Positions 3,120-44,564 of a DNA stretch of 46,281 nt are shown piece by piece (positions within the stretch are counted from its first letter, which is position 1; each line of letters opens with the position of its first letter). The stretch lies in the IMG/VR virus record IMGVR_UViG_3300038999_000010, positions 1 through 46,281 of that record, one strand, 5' to 3'. This DNA comes from a virus. The position numbers and the translations under genes were made by a program. Under the pieces are notes generated by a model. The model searched no databases and was not told the DNA's origin. It saw only the letters and a program-made list of their open reading frames with translations.

Positions 3120-4271
3120 TTAAGCTGCTGCTAAAACTTCTCTGGCACCATTGTTACCAGGTGAAGTTACGACCTTGTTATTCTCAAGTAACTCAACAAT
3201 GCGAGCTGCTCGGTTGTAACCAATACGGAACTTACGTTGAATGCTAGACACCGATACTCTTCGGGTTTCAATGACGAATGCTTTAGCTTCATCATATAGA
3301 GAGTCTACTTCGTCAGTACTTTCTACAGCTTGTAACTTAACTTCTTCTTTTGAACCATCAAGATAGTCAGTGGTTTTAAGGCTAAACTCTGCTAACAAGT
3401 CAATGATGAAGCGATTCAATTCACCGGCCATTAATACAAAATCAGCATCTAACTTGGCTAATACATCATCACTATCAATATCATCGTTTTGCTCATGGAT
3501 TACATCGAAGAACTTAAGGCGTTTAATTGATAAATCATCGTTAAGTACAAAGGAAAGCGACTCGTCCCACTCAAGGGCGATTTTGGAAACGTATTTATCT
3601 GCATCTAAATGCGCTTTAACTTCATCACCCATCAAATCTTGATTTTTAACTCGAGCGATAGCACCATCATCACCAAGAGCATTGAACTCTGCTTCCATGC
3701 CTAAAGTAAACTTACCGCTTAAGCTTTTTTCGTTAAGCCAGTCAGTCATGGTTTCATCTGCTGTCACATCAGGATCAAAGCTTGTTACAGGTAATGTACC
3801 TAGTGCTTTTCGTAGTAGGGCCAATAAGTCTTCAGCTTTACCGCGGCTACTTGAGTTAACAACGATGATATTATTTTCAGGGCAAATGTAGGCATGAGTA
3901 TCAGTTATGCGAGAAAATGCTCGAGGTAAAAGTTCAAAGATAATGTCCTCTTTAAATTGCTCCTTTTCTTTTTTGGTTGCGCTACGGCCTTGTTCTACTT
4001 CAAGCAGTTCAATTTTCGCTTCAACCATATCTTTGATTACTGGGGCAGGGAGCATCTTCTCTTCTTTGCGAGCACAGATAAGTAAGTTGCCATTACCTTG
4101 ATGAACAGAGCTTGAGCCATGTTTACCTAGCGCATTAGTCCAGCCAAAATGCGATATTTCAGTAGAACCACAAGGAGTAAATAAGCACTCAGACAAATGC
4201 TGTTCAAGCTGCTCTTGTGTCCAAGTGAACGGACGAGTAAATGCGAAAATAAATAAGTTGTTAAACCACAT
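3120..4271 (-). CDS. rdgC: RdgC-like protein fused to a C-terminal FtsK gamma domain
   Basis: This 383-residue protein has two recognisable parts. Residues 1 to about 300 match RdgC, the ring-forming, sequence-nonspecific dsDNA-binding protein that limits Rec[10 protein letters not shown] start, FGWTNALG near 42-49, LLPRAFSRI, and a conserved C-terminal LRFFDV-like segment (LKFFDV). Residues 323-383 match the FtsK gamma winged helix, which in the host binds KOPS DNA and activates XerD; the recognition helix region [16 protein letters not shown] and the closing NNGAREVL are almost as in cellular FtsK. Ordinary RdgC is about 300 residues and lacks this tail. It lies in the leftward early operon, where phages keep recombination genes. 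The domains are clear; the function of the fusion is inference. Confidence 0.9.
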
Positions 4272-11551: not shown

Positions 11552-12742
11552 TTGTCACTCATTACGTTAAAGATCACTGATAGCGCTATTTCTGCCAATG
11601 CTGCATTACCTAGTGTTGCACGTATTAGGGATTCGCTTAATCCTCTTGTTCAGTTCAGATTTAGCAGTAATCGCGCAAAAGGTTATTGGTTTATTTATCA
11701 CAAAAAATGGCAGAAAGTTGGTTCATGGCCTGAGAGCAAGACGCGTGATATTAGACAGGGTTTTAGTGTACTGATTAGTAAAATACGAGATAAGCAGGAG
11801 GCTAATATCATCAAAGATTGCTTTGGTAATGTTGGTGATTTACTTACCTGGTATGAAGAACGTAAAGCTGGTGATGCTTACTTAAGCCACCAACGTAAAA
11901 AGGATATTAAAAGCGCAGTGAATTGTCATTTAATTCCTTTGCTTGAAAGCGCTAATTTTGAGGATTTATCTCATTCCTATTTAGATACTCATTTTATATG
12001 GCCACTGCAAAAGAAGTTAGCGAAAGCAACCGTAGCAAAGTTATTTAGAACACTTAAAACGGCCGTATCTGAAGCGTGTAATCTCCATATGCTTGAGAGT
12101 AATCCGTTAGTCGGTATGAAAATTACTGACTTTGGTAATTTCATTAGCAGACCAAAGGGAACAGCTTTGCAACCTTATATGGTTCAAGCGCTACTTGATG
12201 AGTTAACTGAGCAAAAGCCAATAACCAAAGTGATTGTGATGATGATGATCACGTTAGGTACCCGTATTGGTGAAACTAGACAAGCCAAGTGGAAGAACTT
12301 CTATTTTGGTGATCAGTCAGTTTGGACCATTCCCTCGAGCGATACTAAAACCTCAGAAGCTCACACTATATATTTGCCTAAGTTGATCGCTGAATTTCTG
12401 CAGCATTGGAAGCAGTATCAAGAGAGTAAGCATTATAAAGGCAAGTTTGTATTTCCTAGTGTGACAGAAAAGGAGTGCGTGGGCTCAACAACTGCTTCAA
12501 CGTTAATTAATGATTTTAGCGGTGGTGAATGGTTATCACATGACTTAAGAAAATGTGCACGAATTGCATGGGCAGAGCAGGGTACTGATTTTATGGTCGG
12601 TGAAAAAATGCTTAATCATAAATTGAATAAAATAGCTGAAGCGTACTTGGATACCAAGGTTAAAGATTTAAGACTTGAGGCATTAGAACGTCATGTTGAA
12701 TGGCTTTTATCATTAAATAAAAACTGTTTTAACTTGGTCTAG
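11552..12742 (+). CDS. int: tyrosine recombinase (phage integrase)
   Basis: This 396-residue protein starts at a TTG with AGGGGG 8 bases upstream, directly after the preceding stop. It has an N-terminal arm-binding-like part, a core-binding SAM-like region (about 90-190) and a catalytic domain. Catalytic residues are visible: Arg238 in TLGTRIGE, Lys266 in SSDTKTSE, His330 and Arg333 in SHDLR, His356 in MLNHK and Tyr365 in EAYLD. It would cut and join att sites to integrate and excise the phage. Its central place, after the replication genes and 10 kb from the Xis-like gene, is unusual. Confidence 0.92.
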   Translation: MSLITLKITDSAISANAALPSVARIRDSLNPLVQFRFSSNRAKGYWFIYHKKWQKVGSWPESKTRDIRQGFSVLISKIRDKQEANIIKDCFGNVGDLLTWYEERKAGDAYLSHQRKKDIKSAVNCHLIPLLESANFEDLSHSYLDTHFIWPLQKKLAKATVAKLFRTLKTAVSEACNLHMLESNPLVGMKITDFGNFISRPKGTALQPYMVQALLDELTEQKPITKVIVMMMITLGTRIGETRQAKWKNFYFGDQSVWTIPSSDTKTSEAHTIYLPKLIAEFLQHWKQYQESKHYKGKFVFPSVTEKECVGSTTASTLINDFSGGEWLSHDLRKCARIAWAEQGTDFMVGEKMLNHKLNKIAEAYLDTKVKDLRLEALERHVEWLLSLNKNCFNLV

Positions 12743-38383: not shown

Positions 38384-38743
38384 ATGTCAAGTCAAATACT
38401 GGTAGGTAATCAAGTAGGAACTCTCGGAGAGATTTCTTTAATTGAAGACGATAACGTTTTATGGACTCATAACGAAACGCTAACAGCGTGGCTTGTTAAA
38501 TTTCCTGATCGTGACATTAGTGAATACCATCGAAACTTTACGTTGATAAAAGTCACGGACAGAACCAAAGCTCAATTACTCTATCTTGGTGAAGCAATTG
38601 TTATTGATGAAAACCCAATAACAAATCGTTGGTTTTTTGTTGAACCGGATAAAACTAGCGAACAATGGCAAGAACTGTTCACTACTGGTGAAACAAGCAA
38701 AACGTTTGCTGAAATAGAGCCTTATTTACGAGAGTTTAGCTAA
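38384..38743 (+). CDS. hypothetical tail-region protein
   Basis: This ORF encodes 119 residues (MSSQILVGNQVGTLGEISLI). It contains beta-like strands and an acidic C-terminus (SKTFAEIEPYLREFS). Its stop overlaps the start of the beta-helix protein by one base (TAATG), so both are translated together and it may be its adaptor. Function unknown. Confidence 0.6.
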   Translation: MSSQILVGNQVGTLGEISLIEDDNVLWTHNETLTAWLVKFPDRDISEYHRNFTLIKVTDRTKAQLLYLGEAIVIDENPITNRWFFVEPDKTSEQWQELFTTGETSKTFAEIEPYLREFS

Positions 38744-40383
38744 TGCCTATTATTGAGATAATAAAAGTTTATGAAGATGGCACAGGCGCTTTTACATCAA
38801 TAAAAACCGCCATCGATGCAAACAGGCAAGATTTACCCGCCAACGATAAGCAGCTTGTCTTTGAGTTGAGCGGGCAGCAAATTATTAGCGGGTCTTTTAT
38901 TGACTTAGCACTTTATACAACCGACTTAACTCGAAATATAGTTATTCGTGCTAAAGCGGGAGAGAAAGCTAATGGTATAGCCGGTTATGGGGCAACTTAT
39001 AACGGCGGCGGAACTTATGTACTAGTAGCGAGACATAAACACGTAGTTTTTGATGGTATTGAGCTTGCTGGAGGGCGAAGCATACATTCAGCTACGAATG
39101 TAACTGTGCAAAATTGCTTGGCTCACGATATCGATTCTTGGCTTTCAACAGATATAGGTGCTCAATATTACAATTGTATTTTGTATGATTGCGGTTTACC
39201 TAACGACTCAGGCTCAAACGGTGTTTACTTATTAAATGCTAAGATGCATCGATGTACATTAGTTGCAGATTTAGCGCATGGTGGTTATGGCGGTCAAATA
39301 TTATCTAGATATAGTAAAGATATCTCTCCTGCGACGCAGACAATCCATGTAAACGAAAGCATTGGTGGTCACGACAATTACCACCCAGCTTACGGTACAT
39401 TAAATGATTATAACGCTGATAGCGAAGGTAAAGCACCGGGTACGAACACGTTTACTGCGTCACTGGCTGATTTTGAAGATGCTGCAAATAAGAATTACAA
39501 CTTATCAACGAGCTCTCCGCTTTACACTGGGGGACCAAGTGGAGAGCCAATTGGGGCAATATTAGCCAGTGCACCTGTTGTTATTCCTGCCGTAACGATT
39601 GATAGCGTAATAGCAGAGCAAATCGAACAAGGCCAAGTAAATTCGATCACCACGAATTGTTCAGTGCTTGGTGTTAATGCTGAGCAGCTCGAACAAGTTG
39701 CCCCGGTTACATTAACCTCAACCGTTTCAATTGCTGCCATTATTGCAGAGCAAATAGAGCAAGGCCAAACTCAGCAAATCACGGCTAATAATTCATTGTT
39801 TGGTGTTAATGCTGAGCAGCTCGAACACGTTGTCCCGGTTACATTAACCTCAACCGTTTCAATTGCTACCATTATTGCAGAGCAAATAGAGCAAGGACAA
39901 ACTCATCCAATCACGGTTAATTATTCATTGTTTGGTGTTAATGCTGAGCAGCTTGAACAAATTCAGCCGATCACATTAACCTCAACTGTTTCAATTGCTA
40001 CCATTAATGCAGAGCAAAAAGAGCAAGCTAGCCCGATAAGTTTAAGCGGTGCTAACGTAGTCATTTCGCTGATTGCAGAGCAAATAGAACAGGGGCAAGC
40101 TAATCAGGCCACTGTTAACTATTCATTGTTTAGTCTTAATGCTGCGCAGCTAGAACAAGCTGAGCCGGTAACATTAGCCTCTAGTATTTCAATTAACAGT
40201 GTAATGGGCGAGCAGTTAGAGCAAAGTACATTCATTGAACAAGAAAAAACACTTGCTCAAAGCTTATTACGAAGTAACCAAATTAGCCTGATAAAAACCA
40301 CGTTCCACTATAAATTAATGAGGAACACTTCAACAATCACAACAATAAAAACCACTCCTACTTACTCAATACAAAAGGTATAA
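38743..40383 (+). CDS. tail protein with beta-helix domain and 22-residue repeats
   Basis: This ORF encodes 546 residues. Residues about 1-270 read as a right-handed parallel beta-helix of the pectate-lyase-like type (YEDGTGAFTSIKTAID, VVFDGIELAGGRSIHSATNV, VQNCLAHDI, MHRCTLVADL), common in tailspikes that bind or degrade surface sugars. Residues 291 to about 494 contain ten units of 22 residues, each starting AEQxEQ or a variant. The C-terminal 50 residues are basic and threonine-rich. No catalytic residues can be assigned. It is probably a receptor-binding or surface-exposed virion protein. Confidence 0.75.
   Translation: MPIIEIIKVYEDGTGAFTSIKTAIDANRQDLPANDKQLVFELSGQQIISGSFIDLALYTTDLTRNIVIRAKAGEKANGIAGYGATYNGGGTYVLVARHKHVVFDGIELAGGRSIHSATNVTVQNCLAHDIDSWLSTDIGAQYYNCILYDCGLPNDSGSNGVYLLNAKMHRCTLVADLAHGGYGGQILSRYSKDISPATQTIHVNESIGGHDNYHPAYGTLNDYNADSEGKAPGTNTFTASLADFEDAANKNYNLSTSSPLYTGGPSGEPIGAILASAPVVIPAVTIDSVIAEQIEQGQVNSITTNCSVLGVNAEQLEQVAPVTLTSTVSIAAIIAEQIEQGQTQQITANNSLFGVNAEQLEHVVPVTLTSTVSIATIIAEQIEQGQTHPITVNYSLFGVNAEQLEQIQPITLTSTVSIATINAEQKEQASPISLSGANVVISLIAEQIEQGQANQATVNYSLFSLNAAQLEQAEPVTLASSISINSVMGEQLEQSTFIEQEKTLAQSLLRSNQISLIKTTFHYKLMRNTSTITTIKTTPTYSIQKV
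39613..40224 (+). repeat. ten 66-bp coding repeats (132-bp near-identical super-repeat)
   Basis: The first codons of the ten units fall at residues 291, 313, 335 and so on to 489, in exact 22-residue register. At DNA level GGTGTTAATGCTGAGCAG recurs every 132 bases (near 39670, 39802 and 39934), and units 2-6 are almost identical, so copy number could change by recombination. Confidence 0.9.
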
Positions 40384-41125: not shown

Positions 41126-41157
41126 AAACGGGTATAAATATATATTTATACCCGTTT
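41126..41157. terminator. bidirectional terminator closing the late operon
   Basis: A 32-bp perfect palindrome (15-bp arms around TA, with CGGG/CCCG at each outer end) is flanked by an A run on the left and TTT on the right. It separates the plus-strand late operon from the convergent minus-strand cassette and should stop both. Confidence 0.9.
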
Positions 41158-41216
41158 AATGTTCGGTTCGCTTTTATCTAATGACTGAGTAAGTGTAACC
41201 ATAGTATCCCTCTTGG

Positions 41217-41615
41217 TTATTCTGTTGCATTAACTTCTTTGATTCTATCAATAAGCCATAGAATTCTATCTCGCCCCGCCTTTAGGTCCTCTAAACTTTC
41301 AGATAAATAAAAGGTATTTGCTAATTCATCATCGGTTAAATGGCCTAGTGAAGTTAGGGCTCGTTTCTCATTAATAGCTTTATGATCATTGGTTAATCGG
41401 TGCAGCTTTCGTGATAGCCACCTTAAATGTTCTTTCCCTGCTGTAAGCCAAGAAATAAAAAGCATATCTGATACGTTATGCACTAGTGCCGTCGCTATGA
41501 CTTCACTAGGATAATGACCGTAAGCTATTTGCTTATCACCTTTGCTGTAATGCTCACCATGTGGGTCTGGTTCGTTATTCTCTCGCCACTTGGCAAACGG
41601 TGTTGATTCAGTCAT
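41217..41615 (-). CDS. hypothetical protein, last gene of the right cassette
   Basis: The ATG at 41615 has GGGAG 6 bases upstream and gives 132 residues. The protein begins MTESTPFAKWRENNEPDPHG and has helical segments with conserved-looking Trp and His residues (SWLTAGKEHLRWLSRKLHRL), ending in another helix (RDRILWLIDRIKEV). No family is recognised. Its start is preceded by one copy of the intercistronic motif (41628-41639). Confidence 0.65.
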   Translation of the reverse strand: MTESTPFAKWRENNEPDPHGEHYSKGDKQIAYGHYPSEVIATALVHNVSDMLFISWLTAGKEHLRWLSRKLHRLTNDHKAINEKRALTSLGHLTDDELANTFYLSESLEDLKAGRDRILWLIDRIKEVNATE

Positions 41616-41640
41616 TTTCGCTCCCTTGGGGTAATTGTGG

Positions 41641-41757
41641 TTAAAAATTGGCTTCATCATTGTAAGACTTAGCCCAAACTGCTTGTGCAAACTGTCGGCC
41701 TTGTTGTACTGCCCAAAAATGCTGCCAACGATACCATTTCAATACATGTGCATTCAT
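41641..41757 (-). CDS. 38-residue protein
   Basis: I read this short gene directly: start at 41757 with GAGG 4 bases upstream, beginning MNAHVLKWYRWQHFWAVQQG and ending KSYNDEANF. It is aromatic and basic, with three Trp in the first half, and is probably one amphipathic helix. One copy of the cassette motif precedes it, and the next copy follows its stop directly. Function unknown. Confidence 0.5.
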   Translation of the reverse strand: MNAHVLKWYRWQHFWAVQQGRQFAQAVWAKSYNDEANF

Positions 41758-41786
41758 AAAACCTCACTCGGGGTAATTGTGTTTAG

Positions 41787-41918
41787 TTATTCAGCTTCTT
41801 CAATATCTTCAAGTACGCAAGCTTTGACATAATCACAAGCTTCGTCACGATTCATTTCATTGTCAGCAATACAACAAGCCATTTCTTCAAGTAGTGCCAA
41901 TGTCACTTCAAATTTCAT
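41787..41918 (-). CDS. 43-residue acidic protein
   Basis: I read this short gene directly: start at 41918 with AGGA 8 bases upstream, beginning MKFEVTLALLEEMACCIADN and ending in acidic residues. It has two helices and four Cys in the sequence. The well-formed ribosome binding site and motif copy upstream support a real gene. Function unknown. Confidence 0.5.
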   Translation of the reverse strand: MKFEVTLALLEEMACCIADNEMNRDEACDYVKACVLEDIEEAE

Positions 41919-41954
41919 GTTGTTTTCCTGTTGGGGTAATTGTGTTGCAAAAAT

Positions 41955-42299
41955 TTAAGCTACTACCAGCTTTTCATCTAATTTTTGGAATAATTCCATG
42001 TAAAATAATTGCGAACTCATAGTAAAACCACTGTCACAAAAGACAAATTGCCAAGTATCAATTTTTTCGTTTAAATAATTAAAAAGTTGTTCGTAGTTCC
42101 AAAAAACAGAGAATTGAATAACAACCTCACCTTTATCAAATCGCCCCCAACTAACGTTAGCATCAAAGCCAATATCATCAGCAAAGGTTGATTGTTTGAA
42201 TTCAACGGTAAAATTACCGTACTCTTCGACTATTTCTAAAAAGGCTTTCATTCCCTCTTTTTCTTTATCATCAGCCCATTCGGGCAATTGATTTTCCAT
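41955..42299 (-). CDS. hypothetical protein of the right cassette
   Basis: The ATG at 42299 has AAGGA 6 bases upstream and gives 114 residues; an earlier start has no spacing. The acidic N-terminus (MENQLPEWADDKEKEG) is followed by a mixed alpha/beta region (VVIQFSVFWNYEQLFNYL, WQFVFCDSGF). It is soluble, with no motif recognised, and is one of five small genes downstream of the methyltransferase. Confidence 0.6.
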   Translation of the reverse strand: MENQLPEWADDKEKEGMKAFLEIVEEYGNFTVEFKQSTFADDIGFDANVSWGRFDKGEVVIQFSVFWNYEQLFNYLNEKIDTWQFVFCDSGFTMSSQLFYMELFQKLDEKLVVA

Positions 42300-42334
42300 G
42301 TTCATTCCTTATAAAATCGGGTTATTTGGTTGCA

Positions 42335-42547
42335 TTAATAGTTATCAGGCCAAAGCGCTTCTATTTTTTTTCGTGTGTCTTCAGTGACATTACAAAGATA
42401 ACAAGGCTTATAAAATCTTTTGCCTGACTCTATTAATTTTGGTAATTCGTTTAAGTGAATAAACGGGTTAGGTGATACAGAATGATAAAGACGCTCATAA
42501 AACGCTTTCGCTTCTTCTTCCGATGTATCATGAATAACGGCGCTCAT
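42335..42547 (-). CDS. hypothetical protein with a CYLC pair
   Basis: This ORF encodes 70 residues with an excellent AGGAGG site 9 bases upstream. It starts MSAVIHDTSEEEAKAFYERL and carries PCYLCNV near residue 50, a single cysteine pair. It lies just downstream of the methyltransferase and probably belongs to the same transcript. Function unknown. Confidence 0.6.
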   Translation of the reverse strand: MSAVIHDTSEEEAKAFYERLYHSVSPNPFIHLNELPKLIESGKRFYKPCYLCNVTEDTRKKIEALWPDNY

Positions 42548-42585
42548 AGCCTTATGCCTCCTAAATTCGGGCTATTCTGTTCAGT

Positions 42586-44028
42586 TTATGCAGCTATTCG
42601 CTGCTCGTTTGTGCCAATATTGGCGATGACTAAAGCTTGGGCTACTGGTGGGCAAACTGCGTTACCACATCGAGCCACTTGTTTAGCTTTTGATAATTTC
42701 TTGCCGTTACTGTCATGGCTAATTTGGTAATCTGACGGAAACCCCATAGCCGCAAATAATTCATCAGGATCAAATATTCTTAAGAAAATATCGACTATTT
42801 GATACCGCTCACCTTTAACCGTAACTATTGCAAAACGGTCTTTTGTGGTTATGGTGTCAATTGGTTCGTCAACACTCACAGCACCACCTGTGCCGTAATA
42901 CTTAATAAGAAACGCTCTAACTTCCCCTAAATGATTTCCTCCGGCTGAAATGGTATGCAATGGCTCATTCATAGAATGACCAACGTTTGTACCTCTAAAC
43001 TTAATTACACTGGCTGTTACTAAACCAAAGTGACCCCCTTTAACCTGTGCGCAAAGCGTTCTCATAGGTTCATTAGCATCAAAGTTTCTTTGGCTTGATG
43101 AATTAGCAAACTCAGTAATAAACGGAACTGCGGCATGTTCAGGTACAAAAAAAGGGTCGTCACAATTAACAACGTACTTTTCAATTCCTTTGAATATTCG
43201 TCTCAACGTATTTTCTACTAAAGGCTTTTTGGGCCTATCGAATATAGAGCGAATAGGTTTTGACCAATCTATGCACTCGGCAATAGTCCGATATGGTTTT
43301 AGTCCACTGCCTTTTTTACCATGAGTCGGTAAAGGCCAAGTGATAGGCTGGTTGTCATTTCTTGCTACTAAAAACAAGCGTTTTCTAGTGGTCGGCACTC
43401 CATAATCACAAGCCTTTAAAATTTTATGTTCAAGGTCATAACCTAAACCATGTTTAATTTTTTTATATAAAGCTAACTTATATCGGAGGTCATAATTAAA
43501 CTTAAATAAAGCGTGGTAAACGTCTTTGTATGCCGGATTATTTTTTTCTAAACCAGTCGTTAACGCTTTAACAAAACCATTATAGGTTTCACCTTTTCTT
43601 TTATCACAAGGTTTGAAATTGCCTTTTTCATCTTTAACAACAGGCCCCCAAGTTAAAAATTCCTCAACATTTTCTAACATCATCATTCTAAGTGGCACTG
43701 ATGCAGCCCAACGAACAGCAACCCAAGCTAAACCACGAATATTTTTATCAACCGGCTTACCGCCTTTAGCTTTTGAAAAATGCTTACAATCAGGTGAAAA
43801 CCAAGCCAAACCAACAGGACGACCCGCGCAAGCTTCAACGGGGTCTACGTCCCATACAGATTCGCAATAATGCTTTGTTTTGGGATGGTTCAACCTGTGC
43901 ATATTTATGGCATCAACATCATGATTAATGGCAATATCAACATGCCCGTCAATACCTGTACCAATGCCCGTACTTGCACCACCACCACCCGCAAAGTTAT
44001 CAACTGTTATTTCACCTGGTAAAAGCAT
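42586..44028 (-). CDS. dcm: C5-cytosine DNA methyltransferase
   Basis: The ATG at 44028 has AAGGA 9 bases upstream and gives 480 residues; the TTG two codons earlier is too close. Motif I is DNFAGGGGASTGI (10-22), motif IV is SPDCKHFS with the catalytic Cys81, and motif VI is LENVEEF (118-124). DYGVPTTRKRLFLVAR is motif VIII. Conserved C-terminal parts include FLIKYYGTGG and PDELFAAMGFPSDY. Phage enzymes of this type protect their DNA or modify host DNA. It heads the right accessory cassette, under the RHH-linked promoter, and may be paired with the nuclease at 44840. Confidence 0.92.
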   Translation of the reverse strand: MLLPGEITVDNFAGGGGASTGIGTGIDGHVDIAINHDVDAINMHRLNHPKTKHYCESVWDVDPVEACAGRPVGLAWFSPDCKHFSKAKGGKPVDKNIRGLAWVAVRWAASVPLRMMMLENVEEFLTWGPVVKDEKGNFKPCDKRKGETYNGFVKALTTGLEKNNPAYKDVYHALFKFNYDLRYKLALYKKIKHGLGYDLEHKILKACDYGVPTTRKRLFLVARNDNQPITWPLPTHGKKGSGLKPYRTIAECIDWSKPIRSIFDRPKKPLVENTLRRIFKGIEKYVVNCDDPFFVPEHAAVPFITEFANSSSQRNFDANEPMRTLCAQVKGGHFGLVTASVIKFRGTNVGHSMNEPLHTISAGGNHLGEVRAFLIKYYGTGGAVSVDEPIDTITTKDRFAIVTVKGERYQIVDIFLRIFDPDELFAAMGFPSDYQISHDSNGKKLSKAKQVARCGNAVCPPVAQALVIANIGTNEQRIAA

Positions 44029-44040
44029 ATTCAATAATCC

Positions 44041-44253
44041 TTATAAACTATTTGTAATAACGCAGTTCGCTGTCAGTACATCCGAAAACAATTTTCCGTC
44101 CAAATGTAAAAGCCCAGAATCGGCAGCAGGTAAGAACTTAAGCAAATTAGAATGTTTACTGTTCTTTGTTAAATTTCCAACCAACTTAGAATCACGCTTA
44201 ACGTCATAATCAGTACTAAAATCTTTTAATGTGATTTCTATTGCTGGTTTCAT
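44041..44253 (-). CDS. hypothetical protein upstream of the methyltransferase
   Basis: The ATG at 44253 (MKPAIEITLKDFSTDYDVKR) gives 70 residues; an upstream TTG in frame has weaker support. It is the first gene of the leftward cassette, 12 bases before the methyltransferase. No membrane segment or motif is recognised. Function unknown; possibly a regulator or partner of the methyltransferase. Confidence 0.5.
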   Translation of the reverse strand: MKPAIEITLKDFSTDYDVKRDSKLVGNLTKNSKHSNLLKFLPAADSGLLHLDGKLFSDVLTANCVITNSL

Positions 44254-44280: not shown

Positions 44281-44338
44281 ATTAATGTACGTACAATAAT
44301 ACATTAATATTTTAATGTGTCAATTAAAGTACGTACAA
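44281..44338 (-). promoter_or_regulatory. promoter and operator set of the right cassette
   Basis: On the minus strand TTGACA (44323-44318), a 16-base spacer and TATTAT (44301-44296) read toward the methyltransferase genes. GTACGTACAA flanks the promoter as exact direct repeats at 44287-44296 and 44329-44338, 42 bases (four helical turns) apart, and ATTAATGTA/TACATTAAT (44281-44308) overlaps the -10 region. The divergent RHH protein is the obvious candidate to bind here. Confidence 0.75.
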
Positions 44339-44384: not shown

Positions 44385-44564
44385 ATGAAAGATGATAAAA
44401 AAAAGGTCGGTAGACCTGTGAAACCAATTAAAGCAAGTGCTCGCTGTGAGTTCAGGGTTTTACCCAGCAAGAAAGAACAGTATGAAGAAAAGGCCAAAGA
44501 AAAAGGCTTGAAGCTTGGTGCGTGGCTAAAAAGTTTAGCCGATGAAGCTTTAGAGAAAGAATAA
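44385..44564 (+). CDS. ribbon-helix-helix-type transcriptional regulator
   Basis: The ATG at 44385 gives 59 residues: a basic N-terminus (MKDDKKKVGRPVKPIKASA), a beta-strand-like CEFRVLPS, then two helices (KKEQYEEKAKEKG, LKLGAWLKSLADEAL). This order fits the small RHH (Arc/MetJ-like) regulators. The AGG before the start is too close to be a normal ribosome binding site, so the exact start is uncertain. It diverges from the methyltransferase cassette and likely represses it and itself through the repeats in between. Confidence 0.65.
   Translation: MKDDKKKVGRPVKPIKASARCEFRVLPSKKEQYEEKAKEKGLKLGAWLKSLADEALEKE

Follow-up and report, generated by a model that had tools for sequence, protein, structure and literature searches.

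The window analysed here, the whole stretch of 46,281 nt of viral DNA (W), carries on its minus strand a single operon in which a promoter is followed by a short first gene (g1), a gene for a C5-cytosine methyltransferase (dcm), five small genes (s1 to s5), an 18-codon ORF and a hairpin terminator (Table 1). Separate promoters for each gene were considered and rejected, the single strong promoter lying upstream of the array. Relatives of s1 to s5 were sought in IMG/VR, GTDB and phages, where homologs were found for s5 only; Aeromonas phage ST4 and a small number of others have more distant ones, and the s5 homologs stand outside the motif context described below; no relative carrying the same array genes was found in these collections. 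Positions 1 and 46,281, at which the record begins and ends, are both gene ends, a pattern seen in proviruses that software has trimmed at gene borders. Elsewhere in the window, one 383-aa protein (3120-4271, minus strand) is an unusual fusion of RdgC (Pfam, E 1e-109) with an FtsK gamma domain behind it, and a probable tail or fibre gene of 546 aa (38743-40383) contains internal repeats spaced by 132 bp (39613-40130, plus strand).

Table 1. Features of the accessory-gene operon and its control region in the window.
Feature	Position	Strand	Description
Divergent 59-aa protein	44385..44564	+	ribbon-helix-helix-like, presumed repressor
Second palindrome	44329..44336	.	GTACGTAC; adjoins -35 box
Sigma70-type promoter (predicted)	44296..44323	-	TTGACA-16-TATTAT, 11/12; operon promoter
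Putative operator palindrome	44287..44294	.	GTACGTAC; between -10 box and g1
g1	44041..44253	-	70 aa, first operon gene; phage D has a 69% identical homolog; not preceded by a junction element
C5-cytosine methyltransferase (dcm)	42586..44034	-	no junction element in front
Junction element 1	42568..42581	-	AACAGAATAGCCCG; between dcm and s1
s1	42335..42547	-	70 aa; no relatives found
Junction element 2	42318..42331	-	AACCAAATAACCCG; before s2
s2	41955..42305	-	116 aa; no relatives found
Junction element 3	41933..41946	-	AACACAATTACCCC; before s3
s3	41787..41918	-	43 aa; no relatives found
Junction element 4	41770..41783	-	AACACAATTACCCC; before s4
s4	41641..41757	-	38 aa; no relatives found
Junction element 5	41628..41641	-	ACCACAATTACCCC; before s5
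s5	41217..41615	-	132 aa; 54% identical homolog in Oceanospirillum phage vB_OsaM_PD0307
Junction element 6	41213..41226	-	AACAGAATAACCAA; its TAA is the stop codon of s5, the last large gene
18-codon ORF	41146..41202	-	MVTLTQSLDKSEPNIKRV; after element 6, ends within terminator hairpin
Stem-loop	41126..41157	-	14-bp stem-loop, then T; likely array terminator

Behind the methyltransferase gene, a 14-nt element, AACARAATWRCCSG, occupies six successive junctions of this operon. The first five copies each lie between the upstream stop codon and the next ribosome binding site (RBS), 12-20 nt before the ATG, and the sixth, found by a matrix scan, precedes the 18-codon ORF, possibly a remnant or a slot left empty, that runs into the terminator. 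An earlier note on this DNA had described three exact copies of CACAATTACCCC and two related forms before the RBSs of successive small genes; the exact copies (minus strand) occupy 41628-41639, 41770-41781 and 41933-41944, the positions were confirmed, and all five junctions proved real, the total rising to six with the copy that had been missed at 41213-41226. The longest k-mer present in at least three of the five leaders (45 nt each) is 12 nt, compared with at most 8 nt in 6000 null sets (3000 Markov and 3000 random-window). A matrix built from two other phages only, introduced below, finds 5 sites of at least 14 bits in W, where 60 shuffles gave 0.77 on average and never more than 3. Under a matrix from all sites, the six array copies score 17.4-21.9 bits and the best site outside the array 12.0, so that the rest of the phage lacks the element, as had been claimed.

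The gene divergent from the operon encodes a 59-aa protein that we presume to be ribbon-helix-helix (RHH)-like from a weak NikA-like Pfam match, a structural model (pLDDT 77) with two helices and no strand assigned, and Foldseek matches that are mostly Arc, NikA and CopG at the top and, at E about 1, not significant. A protein of this kind would probably bind the GTACGTAC palindromes.

Arrays of the same design were found in two further phages, D and E, in the course of searches whose IMG/VR scans covered 2.9 million contigs. Scanning IMG/VR for CACAATTACCCC with an RBS gave 44 contigs, 42 of which were chance matches or held no array; the other two, L040 and L066, identical over 17 kb, hold the array of phage E (L066/L122, L040), a plus-strand operon of nine genes with the element before all eight that follow the first. 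Phage E also has parA/parB-like genes, and one of its ORFs is 40% identical to the RdgC/FtsK gamma protein of W. Phage D (L104/L105, L121) was found independently of the motif, through the operator sequence ATTGTACGTACATTAA alone. Its array, identical in L104 and L105, comprises an RHH-like gene, g1 and a methyltransferase different from that of W, and five consecutive junctions carry the element; one overlapping gene lacks it, and the last element stands before the terminator with no gene behind it. Two successive promoter/operator units precede this array (L121, 7980-8400), the first of which drives a 54-aa gene. When the matrix was trained on the other two phages, it found 5 sites of at least 14 bits in D, all at array junctions (shuffles: mean 0.5, maximum 3), and 8 in the array-bearing third of the E contig (mean 0.4, maximum 4). 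Links to Pseudoalteromonas and Vibrio as possible hosts come from protein similarity only.

Other routes gave no further arrays. A stricter scan for motif plus RBS returned 4 matches, all within coding frames, and a scan for AACARAATAACCCG plus RBS returned 26 contigs with no new array among them. In 395 genomes the motif pattern gave only single matches, nine of them against four for the reversed control, which we take as chance. Relatives of Dcm (13 viral and 6 genomic loci) have neither motif nor array, and their neighbour genes differ too. The last gene of array E has a 66% homolog, without the motif, in Vibrio phage douglas 12A4. A single strong element of 20.6 bits, AACCGAATAACCCC, lies at 2758-2771 of contig L125, containing the upstream stop codon and lying 14 nt before a start; this contig has no regulator, and the site may be an isolated member of the family or a chance match. 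Beyond these phages, a search of genomes, phages and plasmids for the regulator and g1 found only a regulator in Pseudoalteromonas piscicida (NZ_CP074588.1; L131, 11900-12200); it shares 56% identity with the phage D regulator and has a TTGTACGTACAA site upstream, but neither array nor junction elements accompany it. Repeats of GGTGGGTGTCTGTGTTA near that RHH-like gene look integron-like.

The control region is common to all three phages, each having a divergent regulator gene and GTACGTAC operators. The regulators are 73% identical between W and D and 35-38% identical to that of phage E, and ATTGTACGTACATTAA at the operator is the same in all three. The part comprising regulator, operator and g1 aligns between W and D as DNA. 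Downstream of g1, shared DNA is confined to the junctions, bar two 13-nt matches at chance level: 31 nt around element 1 of W are 97% identical to the D junction that follows the other methyltransferase, 26 nt are exactly shared by D and E, 19 nt by W and E, and there are shorter islands as well. None of the genes preceded by the motif is common to W, D and E, and the phages are otherwise distant (TerL 48% between W and D; E has few genes in common with W). Of the two ideas in the earlier note, a regulatory role and cassette growth by gene capture, the latter is therefore the better supported, because the junctions are kept in two other phages while the tagged genes are all different. We saw no exchange event directly: each phage D contig is 100% identical to its duplicate over the array, as is each phage E contig, and we found no two close relatives that are distinguished by a single cassette.

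The three arrays together provide 19 sites, all on the array strand and all at gene ends: 17 before a small gene, one before the 18-codon ORF and one before a terminator with no gene. Their consensus is the sequence given above, in which A1, C3, A6, A7 and T8 are invariant and the other positions vary, and the persistence of these positions across diverged subtypes suggests selection on the sequence itself. The core begins 24-34 nt and ends 10-20 nt ahead of the start, and the RBS lies between core and start; the core itself contains no Shine-Dalgarno sequence. On the other side, the upstream stop codon mostly precedes the core by 3-8 nt; in four sites it overlaps the first core base, and in one it is 24 nt off. 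The element is also linked to the end of the gene before it, since a TAA inside the core is that gene's stop codon in 3 of the 19 sites and a copy persists before the terminator of D without a gene to lead. The flanks TTTTTGC and TAACTA upstream of the core also recur. No consensus RNA structure or pairing was found in the elements, and a hairpin sequestering the Shine-Dalgarno sequence was rejected for want of such a structure.

By their right halves, the elements divide into six subtypes, arranged consistently in the three arrays in the order GCCCG, ACCCG, GCGCA, AAGCG, ACCCC, ACCAA, with repeats adjacent (ACCCC three times in W, AAGCG twice in D, ACCCG three times in E). An order as consistent as this arose in 3 of 200,000 full shuffles and in 1,803 of 200,000 block permutations (0.9%), and the second figure is the safer because the subtypes were named after the data were seen. 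The tags look like fixed connectors, given that the same tags, the same subtype order and a similar control switch recur in two viruses in which the tagged genes are all different.

The best-supported reading, though in our judgment an even call, is that the motif is a junction element, at once boundary and leader, of a modular accessory-gene operon found in at least three phages, with genes exchanged between its copies. If so, a single promoter with GTACGTAC operators and a divergent RHH-like regulator would transcribe the entire array, in which the 14-nt element stands just 5' of the RBS of every small gene that follows the leading one to three genes. Short homology at the elements could then allow genes to be swapped, gained and lost between the arrays of different phages, by general recombination or by phage annealing recombination, and an incoming gene would retain a ready-made leader and come under the common control. 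The element would probably serve translation as well. The identity islands and the subtype order are consistent with homologous recombination at the elements, as judged from sequence comparison of three independent arrays. Several points count against exchange: the islands are short for RecA-type recombination, the fixed orientation and the 10-20 nt spacing would follow equally from a role in translation or regulation, the invariant positions point to selection on the sequence, and no recombinase was found within the arrays. A more specialized version, in which the elements are the addresses of a dedicated gene-capture system, with a sequence-specific recombinase or annealing protein acting at the AACARAAT core, the subtypes serving as ordered slots and single genes exchanged in register, would make the operon an integron-like array without attC sites. 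We consider this very doubtful.

The main rival of the boundary or leader reading is a start-associated regulatory role like that of the SAS, and the two may coexist. A protein or RNA of host or phage would bind AACARAAUWRCC in the mRNA 5' of the RBS and set translation or stability of the array jointly; conservation would then come from function, and exchange would be incidental. That 19 of 19 sites are in sense orientation, 17 of them at a constant short distance (10-20 nt) before a real gene start, and that five positions are invariant in otherwise variable sites speak for such a role, which has precedents in the SAS of Cluster K and cluster EF and in the 18-bp motif of cluster EC. We nevertheless hold it to be possible and rather doubtful, because the element is absent before the first genes, the methyltransferase genes of W (dcm) and D and one overlapping gene of D, though all of these belong to the operons concerned, one site is followed by no gene, and the recurrent flanks upstream of the core would be unneeded for translation downstream; a conserved RNA structure is absent as well, and neither a dedicated RNA-binding protein nor another regulator or RNA factor bound by the motif was found.

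The elements could also be a passive trace of array growth, left functionless after tandem duplication copied the junctions, with later divergence or replacement of the intervening genes. The adjacent runs of one subtype in W, D and E are what this history would leave, but genes within one array show no similarity to each other, and the elements are conserved though the regulators have diverged to 35-73% identity, so that we regard it as unlikely. To chance repetition or ordinary RBS similarity we give hardly any credence. The motif is short, the DNA is AT-rich and single copies do turn up by chance in other contigs and genomes; this explanation is already contradicted by the 12-nt sharing that no null set approached and by a held-out matrix that detects the sites in a phage found by another criterion, and the RBS lies outside the core.

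To our knowledge, most mosaic borders in phages have no conserved sequence. In the three phages described here, which otherwise differ, the borders are conserved, follow an order and belong to a single regulated promoter, which makes the swapping of accessory genes testable and bears on how phages assemble and exchange small accessory genes yet keep them expressed. The combination of element, RHH-like gene and GTACGTAC operator can also serve as a search tag for uncharacterised accessory-gene arrays in metagenomes. The T4-type mobile regulatory cassettes of Arbiol et al. 2010 (PeSL), which recur between genes, reportedly consist of a promoter and a stem-loop and have been proposed to aid the shuffling of small genes; the present copies, in contrast, have no promoter or stem-loop of their own and share one strong promoter. 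Unlike an integron cassette array, the elements have no paired, attC-like structure and none of the arrays has an integrase gene; the integrase of W sits at 11552-12742.

Among start-associated sequences, the SAS/ESAS of Cluster K (Pope et al. 2011, PMC3203893) are built on a 13-bp asymmetric sequence, GGGATAGGAGCCC, that holds the Shine-Dalgarno core and takes the RBS position 3-7 bp from the start, and the SAS of Microbacterium cluster EF is GGGAAAGGACCCC (PMC7302621). The present element is likewise a short asymmetric repeat in one orientation, 5' of the starts of non-structural genes of different families, and the upstream stop may fall inside it. It differs in that the core of W, D and E has no Shine-Dalgarno sequence, lies 10-20 nt upstream and occurs in a single operon, which has an RHH-like regulator of its own. 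The earlier description of the motif as SAS-like thus holds for its asymmetry, its sense orientation 5' of starts and its restriction to accessory genes, with unrelated genes behind it, and gives way on position, the element being upstream of the RBS rather than in its place; that it is unrelated to the Cluster K SAS was correct (AACARAATWRCCSG against GGGATAGGAGCCC). In sequence and in position it falls outside the Cluster K definition. The 18-bp repeats of Microbacterium cluster EC, TAGaCTCTaGGTgTaAgC, found 22-30 bp upstream of starts in lytic phages of actinobacteria (PMC7302621), have a similar distance from the start and an unrelated sequence.

The conserved boundary sequences or linkers of lambdoid phages (Clark et al. 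2001; Susskind and Botstein 1978, cited in PMC3029335) are, as far as that account describes them, short, located at the borders of exchangeable genes and proposed as sites of homologous recombination. Compared by description and not by sequence, the present element resembles them as a short conserved sequence between unrelated, exchangeable genes, and differs from the boundaries so described in that a single operon has members of the same sequence family, in ordered subtypes, at one junction after another. The 17-bp repeats of Cluster O mycobacteriophages occur in many intergenic copies, recombination between which explains some gene gain and loss, but they are dyad-symmetric, genome-wide, partly within genes and untied to starts (PMC4351075). 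The Cluster K and EF SAS, the EC motifs, the Cluster O repeats and the lambdoid boundaries are thus the closest known kinds, and in its behaviour the element resembles the SAS and the lambdoid boundaries.
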